From contig JABXGR010000002.1 of NCBI GenBank assembly GCA_013538805.1, positions 62,001-126,000 of the forward strand: a stretch of DNA of 64,000 nucleotides, read 5' to 3'. The stretch comes from Candidatus Nitrosocaldus schleperae. Its GTDB lineage: Archaea; Thermoproteota; Nitrososphaeria; Nitrososphaerales; Nitrosocaldaceae. Position 1 is the first letter of the stretch, and the number at the start of each line of letters is the position of its first letter. The position numbers were made by a program, and so were the translations under genes. The notes beneath the pieces are model-generated. The model was not told where the DNA came from. It ran no database searches and saw only the letters and a list, made by a program, of their open reading frames with translations. Of this stretch, positions 23,423 through 32,822 are shown piece after piece.

Positions 23423-26400
23423 TTATGCAGTGATACGCCTTCTAAGGTAGAGTACTGTAGTTGCTAGTGCACTAGTTACAACTGCTATAGTCCCTAATAT
23501 CCCTTCAGGCACAACGTTGAATGCAACACTTGTCTTTACAGATGCGATTTCGCCATCACTAAACTCAGCCATAATAATCCACTCCCCTGCTCTATCAAAT
23601 GTTATATTTGCTATAGATACCATATTGCCTCCAACATCCTCAGTGTTATAACTTCTCTTTATGAAGGTCCAGTCTGGTGCTATAAGCGATATGCTAACTT
23701 TGCTTATTGGTTTATCAGTTACTACTATACATTGCATAGGCTCACCTATACTTATAGGCATATCCCTTGCTAGGCATGCTAGCAGGTATATGCTGCCTCT
23801 TTTAACATCCATTAGCAGGTATCTTGTATCTCTATCCAGTCTTGGCTCTATCTGGTTTATGGTAGCAGTTATACTATCAGCCTTCTCGCTATCTAGAGGA
23901 TCTATAACCTCCCTTACAATTCTTTTAAGGTCATCTATGCTATGCAATACATAATAACTACTTAGCATTGTATAACCTGCAACAGCATAATTCATATCCA
24001 TATACCCTGTAGGCCCTGGCCATGGATGGGAGAAGCATGCTATAAGCCCTAACCTGCTAGCAGGAGAAGCCTCTGGTATAGCAATTGTATACTCTGTCCT
24101 TCCAACAACCTTGTTATCCTCCTCTACCCACTCTTTTATAAATTGCTCTGGAGATGAAGGGATCCATTCACTAGCATACTCGTTGGTGGAGTAGTTGTAC
24201 CATCTGAACTTTATATAACTGTACATGAACTTCCATATCTCAAGATTAGGATCGTTCCTGTCAAGTGATACTTTCACTGATGCAGTGATGGAGTTCTCAT
24301 CTGGACCTGGAATTAGGTTAATTGAGATGAACCCTCTATCTGCAGTATACTTGCCACATATCTCACCTATATTGAAGTTGATAGGTTCAATACTACCCTC
24401 TTCTTGTTGTGGTTGTTGAGGCTGCTGGGGCTGTTGTGGCTGAGGTTGTTGGGGTTGCTGACCTCCTGCAGATCCAGCATCAGTTATGGTAAAACTCTCT
24501 ATTCTATAAGTCATCTCCATGTAACCTCCAGGCATAGGATGCATAAAACATGCTAGAATCTTTACTCTACTGCTCTGTGAACTTGGTACGGTTAGATTAT
24601 AGGTACCTTCCCCATATAATGGATCACTGCTATTCCATTGTATAACCTTGATTGGTCCTATGGATGTTATCACGTTATTACTCTCATCCAGCCAGAAGAA
24701 TTTTATATCTTCGTACATCCATCTCCAATGCTTCGTTGGGTCAAAAGGCTCTCCGTAGTCATCTGGATTTACTCTTACAGTGAACTTTGCATTTACTGAT
24801 GAGCCAGATGTACCACTTCTAGGCTCTATTAGGAAGGTTATCTGTCTATCTCCTCCAGGATATATACTGCATGGGATGCTACCAGGTTGCTGTTGCTGCT
24901 GCTGTTGCTGTTGCTGCTGTTGTTGCTGCTGTTCCAAATCCTCTTCTTTTGGTGGCTCACTCCCTACATAGAATGTTGTATAACTATTAACCATATCCAT
25001 ATAGCCATCAAGCATAGGATGTACAAAGCATACAAGTAACTTTAGTCTACTTCCAACATCCACATCTGGGATGGTAAGAATTATCTTAGTGCTTCCAGTG
25101 TATATGTCATCATCACCATCATCCCAATTGATTATCCTTAATGGGTCCTTCCATTTACTCATCATTGTCTCATCACCAGCAAACCTCCAAGTTGTTGGTA
25201 AAGGTCTATTAGCATCATCAAGCCACGTTACTGTAATATACTCAAACATCCACCTCATGCTCTCATCCTCTGGCACTATCCTTATCCCTATACTTGCTCT
25301 AACATCGCTTGCAGGGAGTCCATACGAAGGTTCAAGGATTATCTTAACATCCCTATTAACCCATGGTGTACATAACTTACTTATATCTAGCGAGGTGATG
25401 ATCTTTATGCTCAACTCAAGCATTATACGTTCATCATCCACCCTTGCAATTATGTAGAGTCTACCTTCACTGCTTCCTTCAACTCTATGCTCAAACCTAT
25501 AGATAAATTCTTTCTCAGCCTTCTCATCATATATTGGAATAGTTCTACCATCGCTATACACAATATCTATTGCAAGATTGTATTCATCCTCACTACTACT
25601 TATGAAGAAACAGTTTAGCAGATCACCACTCTTAACCTCCACATTATTTGATATACATGCAAGAGTATATAGGCTTCCTTCTATAGCATCTATAAAGATG
25701 TATGATCCCTCCCTTATAGAGAGAGCCTTACTATCTGCACTCCCTTCATAATTTATAGCCCTTTCTACCAGTGCTGTAACCTTCTCTTCACTGAAACTTA
25801 TCCCTCTATCTGCTAATGCTTCAACCACCCTTTCAGGAATATCCTCTGCCTTATCTACTCTATAGTAGGTTATTACCTTCTCTTCCTGTATAACCTTGAA
25901 TGTGTGGGTTGTAAACCCTAACTCCCTCTGCTTGGTTGGAGAGCTCTCAAGCAGGCATGCTAGAAGCATGATATTGGTGTTGGCAGGGGCATCTGGTACC
26001 TCAATGTATGCTGATGCTCTTCCTACTAGAGAGCCATCATCTGAGTAGTCCCAGTATATCCTAGCCTCCTCCCATTCGGATAACTGCCTTGAACCATCTT
26101 GAGTTGAGAACCATGCAAACTTTACATGTGTTAGAGTGAAGATAAGACTCTCATCATTGCTATTGATCGATGCTACAGTATATACCCTGCTTTTAGGTAT
26201 GCCATAAGTATTACTTAATGATAGGTTCACTGTAAGGTTAGTTGGGAGCCTCTCTTCACCCTCCGTTAATAAGCAAGGGATGCTCTCTGAAGTAGGCTTT
26301 GGTTGTGGAGTCTCTTCTTCCTTCTTTATATTTATACTCTCTTCCTTGCTTTTAACCATCTCCTCCTTACCCTCATCCTTCTTAGGCACCACATTGACCT

Positions 26401-26614
26401 TTACCATCTCTCCAATGCTTACATTCTCATCTATGCCCTTCTCCTCCTCTACTGTCACCTTCTTCTCTTCTTCAACTTCTACCTTCTTGCTAGGCGTGAT
26501 GTTTGTATCCTGAGGCTGTATGGATAGAAGGAATATGCTAGATACTATTGCAATTGCAGCTATGCTTGCTATTGCTGCTACTACTGCTCTCTTATATAAG
26601 AATCTAAATCTCAT
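23423..26614 (-). CDS. Large surface protein with two types of repeated domain, poly-Gln linker and PEF-CTERM-like anchor
   Basis: From ATG at 26614 (a TTG at 26662 is also in frame) the protein has 1063 residues. An N-terminal membrane segment (about 10-32) is followed by an acidic Lys/Glu linker. Then come module A1 (112-245), B1 (249-420), A2 (415-545), a 15-Gln run (562-576), A3 (579-710), a Gln/Pro linker (714-738), A4 (750-880), B2 (885-1030), the sorting motif VVPEG (about 1033), a hydrophobic helix and terminal RRRITA. Each A module is an Ig-like beta-rich unit beginning with a Cys and ending in a second Cys; A2-A4 carry C-x2-H-P and a Met-rich loop. B modules share LYTLAC/IYLLAC cores. 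I do not know this architecture. Export and anchoring to the cell surface are likely; metal binding is a hypothesis. Confidence 0.85.
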   Translation of the reverse strand: MRFRFLYKRAVVAAIASIAAIAIVSSIFLLSIQPQDTNITPSKKVEVEEEKKVTVEEEKGIDENVSIGEMVKVNVVPKKDEGKEEMVKSKEESINIKKEEETPQPKPTSESIPCLLTEGEERLPTNLTVNLSLSNTYGIPKSRVYTVASINSNDESLIFTLTHVKFAWFSTQDGSRQLSEWEEARIYWDYSDDGSLVGRASAYIEVPDAPANTNIMLLACLLESSPTKQRELGFTTHTFKVIQEEKVITYYRVDKAEDIPERVVEALADRGISFSEEKVTALVERAINYEGSADSKALSIREGSYIFIDAIEGSLYTLACISNNVEVKSGDLLNCFFISSSEDEYNLAIDIVYSDGRTIPIYDEKAEKEFIYRFEHRVEGSSEGRLYIIARVDDERIMLELSIKIITSLDISKLCTPWVNRDVKIILEPSYGLPASDVRASIGIRIVPEDESMRWMFEYITVTWLDDANRPLPTTWRFAGDETMMSKWKDPLRIINWDDGDDDIYTGSTKIILTIPDVDVGSRLKLLVCFVHPMLDGYMDMVNSYTTFYVGSEPPKEEDLEQQQQQQQQQQQQQQQPGSIPCSIYPGGDRQITFLIEPRSGTSGSSVNAKFTVRVNPDDYGEPFDPTKHWRWMYEDIKFFWLDESNNVITSIGPIKVIQWNSSDPLYGEGTYNLTVPSSQSSRVKILACFMHPMPGGYMEMTYRIESFTITDAGSAGGQQPQQPQPQQPQQPQQPQQEEGSIEPINFNIGEICGKYTADRGFISINLIPGPDENSITASVKVSLDRNDPNLEIWKFMYSYIKFRWYNYSTNEYASEWIPSSPEQFIKEWVEEDNKVVGRTEYTIAIPEASPASRLGLIACFSHPWPGPTGYMDMNYAVAGYTMLSSYYVLHSIDDLKRIVREVIDPLDSEKADSITATINQIEPRLDRDTRYLLMDVKRGSIYLLACLARDMPISIGEPMQCIVVTDKPISKVSISLIAPDWTFIKRSYNTEDVGGNMVSIANITFDRAGEWIIMAEFSDGEIASVKTSVAFNVVPEGILGTIAVVTSALATTVLYLRRRITA
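24887..24931 (-). repeat. CAG/CAA tract encoding 15 glutamines
   Basis: Fifteen Gln codons in a row, mixed CAA and CAG, inside the surface-protein gene between modules A2 and A3. A second Gln/Pro-rich linker is encoded at about 24400-24470. Confidence 0.9.
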
Positions 26615-26861
26615 TTCTTTTTTATCTCTAAATAAGAAATATAAGCCAACATAGTACAACAATCGAATTTATGATTTCTATACTTAGAATTCAAGTTATA
26701 TAATAAAAATCATAATTAAGAATATAAATTAAATAGACTCTAATCTCTTATATTGCATTTATCTTTTAGATGTTTGTACTAGAACTATATTCTAGAATTA
26801 TTTCAAACTTTTCATGAAAGTACCATAAAGTTTTAATAGTCTAGGAGAGATAAGATAGGTA

Positions 26862-32363: not shown

Positions 32364-32390
32364 TTAATATCTTAATTATGCTATACACCT

Positions 32391-32822
32391 TTATATTACT
32401 TTAATGAAGTTAACCTTTACGCTCTTTATTCCCTTGTTCTCTGCTAATTCTTTGGCAAGTCTCTTTATGCTTCTAGCATCACCTCTTACTATTATAGCCT
32501 CAAGGCAGTTATCATCATCAAGGTGTATATGTGTGCTAGCATTAACTATGTGATAGTAGTTGTGCTGTATAAGGGTTAGAGTCTTCTCAATATTCCTAGC
32601 ATGTGGATCATACAAGAGTTCTATTAATCCAGCACCATTGCTAGATTCATCCCCAGAGATCCATTCATTCTCTGATATGAACATCCTCATAGCTGTTTGT
32701 ATAGCCTTCGATCTATCAGTGAATCCAGCCTTCCTGCTAGTTCTATCAAAACTAGCGAGAAGATCTGATGGGAGTGATATGCTTATTCTTGTTATATTCT
32801 TGCCATTACTATTCCCCATCAA
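32391..32822 (-). CDS. nikR: NikR-type nickel-responsive ribbon-helix-helix regulator
   Basis: A 143-residue repressor. The N-terminal ribbon-helix-helix (about 10-50) reads RISISLPSDLLASFDRTSRKAGFTDRSKAI. The C-terminal ACT-like metal domain carries the ligand pattern of NikR: a His in IQHNYYH, the pair in STHIHLD and a Cys in DNCLEAIIVRGD, matching H76, H87, H89 and C95 of the Escherichia coli protein. It converges with the importer operon, with 27 nt between stops. It probably regulates that operon and/or the surface genes. NikR-family members can also respond to other metals. Confidence 0.88.
   Translation of the reverse strand: MMGNSNGKNITRISISLPSDLLASFDRTSRKAGFTDRSKAIQTAMRMFISENEWISGDESSNGAGLIELLYDPHARNIEKTLTLIQHNYYHIVNASTHIHLDDDNCLEAIIVRGDARSIKRLAKELAENKGIKSVKVNFIKVI

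Follow-up and report, generated by a model that had tools for sequence, protein, structure and literature searches.

Organization of the locus

The locus lies in a window of 64,000 nucleotides (the whole stretch of DNA analyzed) from a genome of the Nitrosocaldus clade that comprises 1.45 Mb and is 97% complete. From left to right, it holds the divergent gene p1, followed by p2, p3, the genes for a znuA-type receptor, an ATPase and an ABC-3 permease, and a convergent nikR, with three palindromic elements ahead of the receptor gene:

23423–26662, minus strand: p1, a large surface protein of several modules, exported and encoded divergently from p2
26862–27953, plus strand: p2, an exported protein with two Ig-like β-sandwich modules carrying C-x2-HPM motifs
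28083–29525, plus strand: p3, an exported, anchored protein of a family widespread in ammonia-oxidizing archaea (AOA)
29561–29588, no strand assigned: NikR-type operator 1, GTATTAC-N14-GTAATAC, 28 bp, the lone relaxed-pattern site in the genome
29592–29605, plus strand: second palindrome, TAGTCGATGTCGAC, between both NikR-type sites
29613–29640, no strand assigned: NikR-type operator 2, GTATTAC-N14-TTAATAC, overlapping an A+T-rich promoter
29656–30690, plus strand: ZnuA1, a znuA-type substrate-binding protein, membrane-anchored, predicted nickel receptor (PF01297)
30687–31427, plus strand: znuC-type ATPase (ABC_tran), its adjacency to znuA kept in relatives
31449–32363, plus strand: znuB-type permease (ABC-3) with a His-rich C-terminal tail
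32391–32822, minus strand: NikR1, predicted nickel-responsive repressor, convergent with the importer (PF08753, PRK01002)

The importer genes (29656–32363) overlap or nearly so, with znuC overlapping znuA. The end of p3 and the importer are 130 bases apart; since the operators lie inside this gap, the importer is probably transcribed separately from p3. The order p1-p2-p3-znuACB-nikR is kept in four species. Conserved beside the locus is a gene for a CADD/PqqC-like protein (window positions 22428–23081; TIGR04305, 157 bits, below the cut-off of 200), and a tRNA-like sequence at 23150–23292, probably intron-containing and with a CAT anticodon, received no ARAGORN call in bacterial mode.

The importer proteins

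All three importer proteins score far above the Pfam cut-offs (ZnuA, PF01297, 252.6 bits; ABC_tran, PF00005, 109.4 bits; ABC-3, PF00950, 212.6 bits), bearing out the complete cation ABC importer that a preliminary description of this DNA had read from the sequence. With a ZnuA-family receptor, an ABC ATPase and an ABC-3 permease in one cluster, the system belongs to cluster 9. The four ligands of the receptor's metal site (H80, H154, H220 and D295), whose columns are invariant in 11 orthologs, align with those of MntA, YfeA and MntC, as expected for cluster 9. The best equivalog profiles for the receptor were of zinc and manganese types, every one of them under its cut-off (AztC, 213.6 of 350 bits; MntC, 162.4 of 400; ZnuA, 88.8 of 268). 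The site resembles those of zinc and manganese receptors, and alone cannot prove nickel. The His-rich permease tail, likewise anticipated, is kept in most orthologs, with 8–14 His in nine of them; it is absent from Nitrosothermus and from the paralogous second ZnuABC system, which is present in the host genome.

NikR and its operators

NikR1 combines an RHH DNA-binding domain with NikR_C (PF08753, 94.9 bits) and exceeds the PRK01002 cut-off (134.4 over 111 bits), RHH_1 falling just short of its threshold (20.4 against 20.5) and TIGR02793 also staying below its own. The intact nickel site noted earlier is indeed there: all four ligands (H/H/H/C) align with those of solved NikR chains, e.g., 2bj1 and 2wvd. 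The operator-like repeats before the importer proved equally real: searched with a relaxed 28-bp NikR-type pattern, the 1.45 Mb genome gave a single match, at 29561, followed by another site, with one mismatch, at 29613. Operator 2 was found in 7/7 Nitrosocaldaceae promoters read, and znuA is preceded by NikR-type sites in Nitrosocaldus, Nitrosothermus and Nitrososphaera. The exact operator site is present in 19 genomes among 400 Nitrososphaeria genomes, and 18 of the 19 exact-site loci are at nikR, znuA1, a NicO permease gene or an FmdE/Peripla_BP_2 operon (the exception being locus L110). A reversed-pattern control hit about half as many genomes as the exact pattern; it is thus the position of the sites, not their raw count, that carries the argument. 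The operators are beyond chance. Sites of the GTATTAC-N14-GTAATAC form were not detected in the bacterial relatives tested, and the copper-limitation motifs of N. viennensis did not match the operators here. Taken together, operators, NikR ligands and the linkages described below support the predicted metal importer under metal-dependent NikR control.

As a separate observation, in one genome outside Nitrosocaldus (L098, 1494–3026) this NikR-type operator precedes genes for an FmdE-zinc-finger protein and a Peripla_BP_2 receptor, which constitute another candidate nickel system.

A second palindrome shared with urease and urea-transporter genes

Copies of TAGYCGAYRTCGRC in Nitrososphaera- and Nitrosocosmicus-type genomes stand ahead of ureA and of a gene for a UT-type urea transporter, near PII-like genes, with others upstream of znuA1 or in the space separating nikR from NicO; in the urease-bearing Nitrosocaldus genomes it was not found near urease. 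The palindrome at 29592–29605 is a putative operator of another regulator, common to urease and urea-transporter genes in relatives. Across soil AOA (L159, L163, L143, L169), TAGYCGAYRTCGRC in urease, urea-transporter, PII-like and nickel-importer promoters would mark an unnamed nitrogen/urea regulon. Near the urease cluster of three Nitrosocaldus genomes, we also observed a gene for a 241-aa membrane-like protein without a Pfam match (L166, 1557–2282), whose HGVNPSHGW motif suggests a metal permease.

Association with urease and displacement by NiCoT

In a Nitrosocosmicus-type genome, the importer ends the urease operon, ureA-ureB-ureC-cpn60-ureE-ureF-ureG-ureD-znuA-znuC-znuB running on one strand, and in ten further AOA genomes znuA1 lies within about 4–8 kb of the urease alpha gene. 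Elsewhere the distance from importer to urease stays within about 9 kb. Other AOA genomes encode a NicO permease instead of the importer behind the same NikR1 and, in many, also the same operator. Among 70 genomes, znuA1 was present in 26, NicO (NiCoT) in 18 and both in 0. Urease is encoded in 39 of the 70, with znuA1 in 19, NicO in 16 and neither in 4, i.e., exactly one transporter in 35/39. For this exclusivity, Fisher p is about 4e-5 for all 70 genomes and 1e-7 for the urease genomes, values uncorrected for phylogeny in which independence is overstated, as the genomes are related.

Among 80 named loci, archaeal and bacterial, nikR is nearby in 43 and urease in 23. Nitrosomonas combines ureABC...G, a urea-transporter-like gene, nikR, a TonB receptor gene and znuABC, and Nitrospirota show the order znuA-nikR-znuC-znuB. 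Conservation of the neighborhood, which the preliminary description proposed to check, is borne out; nikR and the importer occur without p1–p3 in Nitrosothermus, Nitrososphaera, Nitrosomonas and Nitrospirota (for the exported proteins, see below). The list of candidate metals in that description (Cu, Ni, Zn or Mn) is narrowed by genomic association to, very probably, nickel. The host genome encodes a [NiFe] hydrogenase with both CxxC motifs (CGIC and CISC). Urease was not detected in the host genome, G080 or G163; as hydrogenase was not detected in G163 either (91% complete), nickel demand is unproven there.

The exported proteins

The three proteins described earlier as exported and of PEF-CTERM type are exported and in place, their type being a judgment by eye: p3 ends in VVPEFPG-TM and reaches 15.1 bits with PEFG-CTERM (TIGR04296; cut-off 25), and the C-termini of p1 and p2 (VPEG/VPEV-TM-RR) matched no sorting model. 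The Cys/His/Met modules attributed to two of them do exist in p1 and p2, albeit incompletely, with C-x2-HP...M[DE]M in 3/4 modules of p1 (lost from the first) and one full and one partial copy of the motif in p2. In each module, one Cys stands at the start and another within an ACFxHPM motif, which suggests a disulfide between them. The His/Met part of the motif is lost or altered in some modules and paralogs, and module paralogs adjoin unrelated genes, e.g., glutamine synthetase. The p2 model shows, with modest confidence, tandem Ig-like sandwiches (pLDDT 67). We also considered p1 and p2 as cupredoxins, given the similarity of Cx2H...M to a type-1 copper loop, and rejected this assignment: p1 module 2 lacks any other His and the p2 model is generic Ig-like.

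Orthologs of p1 and p2 are confined to 4/6 members of the genus and missing from all other genomes of the 400, G136 having only the C-terminal anchor in common. In two species (G067, G360), p2 and most of p1 and p3 are deleted, leaving p1 and p3 only as C-terminal remnants, yet importer, NikR and operators are intact. No NikR site was found before p1, p2 or p3. The earlier proposal that p1–p3 feed the importer is therefore not supported for the three as a set, and p1 and p2 are genus-specific and probably not part of the importer.

For p3 that proposal partly survives. Relatives of p3 occur in 278/400 genomes, and in at least 28 Nitrosopumilaceae one of them converges with a NikR-like gene divergent from the second, paralogous ZnuABC (coordinates compared by eye; 11 loci re-read in sequence). 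A CopC-CopD-Vgb-lyase fusion follows this block (fusion domains tested in one locus), and p3 paralogs in the host genome also adjoin a CopC-CopD fusion. Given these neighbors, a metal role of p3 is plausible. W240, H252, E254, N275, D284 and H294 are invariant across 25 p3 relatives, and predicted signal-peptide cleavage (judged by eye) leaves an N-terminal His in 18/21. The CopC domain (PF04234) has no Pfam match in p3, being carried only by neighbors of p3 paralogs, and a fold search with the p3 model (pLDDT 82) returned generic β-sandwich matches only. For the marine AOA loci combining p3-like, NikR-like 2, ZnuABC 2 and the CopC-CopD-Vgb fusion (L189, 8071–15109, and similar Nitrosopumilaceae loci), the metal is possibly copper.

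Discussion

We infer that 29656–32363 very likely encodes a ZnuABC-type (cluster 9/A-I) nickel importer repressed by NikR, for which p1 and p2 are not required and p3 is perhaps an accessory. The anchored receptor would bind Ni(II) outside the membrane at its three-His/one-Asp site, and the His-tailed permease and the ATPase would carry it inward. Nickel-loaded NikR would then sit on both 28-bp operators (29561–29640), one of them over the core promoter, and turn the operon off. Imported nickel would serve urease in relatives having this enzyme and the [NiFe] hydrogenase in the host, and through the second palindrome between the NikR sites the importer may be connected with the urease regulon. 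p1 and p2 would be lineage-specific surface proteins without a required role, and p3 a possible accessory metal-binding surface protein.

A less likely reading is that p1, p2 and p3 handle copper, a metal of many AOA enzymes, and that their position next to the nickel importer is fortuitous. In favor of it, p3 paralogs in the host lie beside a CopC-CopD fusion, and p3 has the predicted mature N-terminal His and the invariant His/Glu/Asp residues. However, the p3 family adjoins NikR/Znu loci on two occasions, each in another family and with another of the paralogous systems, which is unlikely by chance, and p3 lacks a Pfam match to CopC. With low confidence, we suggest that the p3 family might represent a novel type of metal-binding protein in AOA, exported and membrane-anchored, that would bind nickel or copper through the mature N-terminal His plus the invariant His/Glu/Asp residues and hand it to ZnuABC-type importers in both of the paralogous NikR-family systems.

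Improbable is a single surface metal-acquisition unit, in which the three exported proteins would trap or buffer metal outside and pass it to the importer. The gene order kept in four species, p3 relatives beside the second NikR-like/ZnuABC locus and CopC-CopD fusions in other AOA, and the conserved C-x2-HPM motifs of p1 and p2 speak for it; yet p1–p3 are deleted in two species with importer and operators intact, p1 and p2 are missing outside the genus, no NikR site precedes p1–p3, the paired Cys suggest disulfides, and module paralogs adjoin unrelated genes, as noted above. That the importer carries zinc or manganese as its classical homologs do, NikR-family control being a regulator swap only, is very improbable: its receptor site and top profiles (all below cut-offs) are of these types, but NiCoT displaces it under the same regulator and operator, it resides in a urease operon and is mutually exclusive with NiCoT, and the second ZnuABC of the host can serve zinc or manganese.

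A NikR-repressed nickel importer would give a metal to transporters likely annotated as generic zinc/manganese systems in nitrifying archaea and bacteria, provide AOA with a NikR regulon of defined operator, and explain the nickel supply of ureolytic nitrifiers by either this importer or NiCoT. The second palindrome could offer a way into the nitrogen regulation of AOA. The parts are of known kinds; new would be a ZnuABC-type system as a NikR- and urease-linked nickel importer, of which we found no report in the literature searched, subscription journals lying outside that search.

In deltaproteobacteria, NikR recognizes a 27–28 bp inverted repeat, GTGTTAC-N13/14-GTAACAC (Rodionov et al. 2004, PMC545781). 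The operator architecture is the same here, with one base altered per half-site (GTATTAC-N14-GTAATAC), whereas the target is a ZnuABC-type importer. A 2009 survey listed NikMNQO, NikABCDE and NiCoT as the only archaeal nickel transporters (PMC2667541). With NikABCDE and NikMNQO, the system has its presumed substrate, regulation by NikR and link to urease in common, but the transporter families are unrelated. In other AOA, NiCoT (NicO, PF03824) takes this regulatory position behind the same operator and NikR1, but is a single-protein secondary transporter replacing the ABC importer. ZnuABC, MntABC and AztABC resemble the present system in being built from these three families, in their gene content and in the H,H,H,D-type site of the receptor; in contrast, the importer described here stays below their equivalog cut-offs, has NikR in place of Zur/MntR, is linked to urease and possesses a conserved His-rich permease tail.
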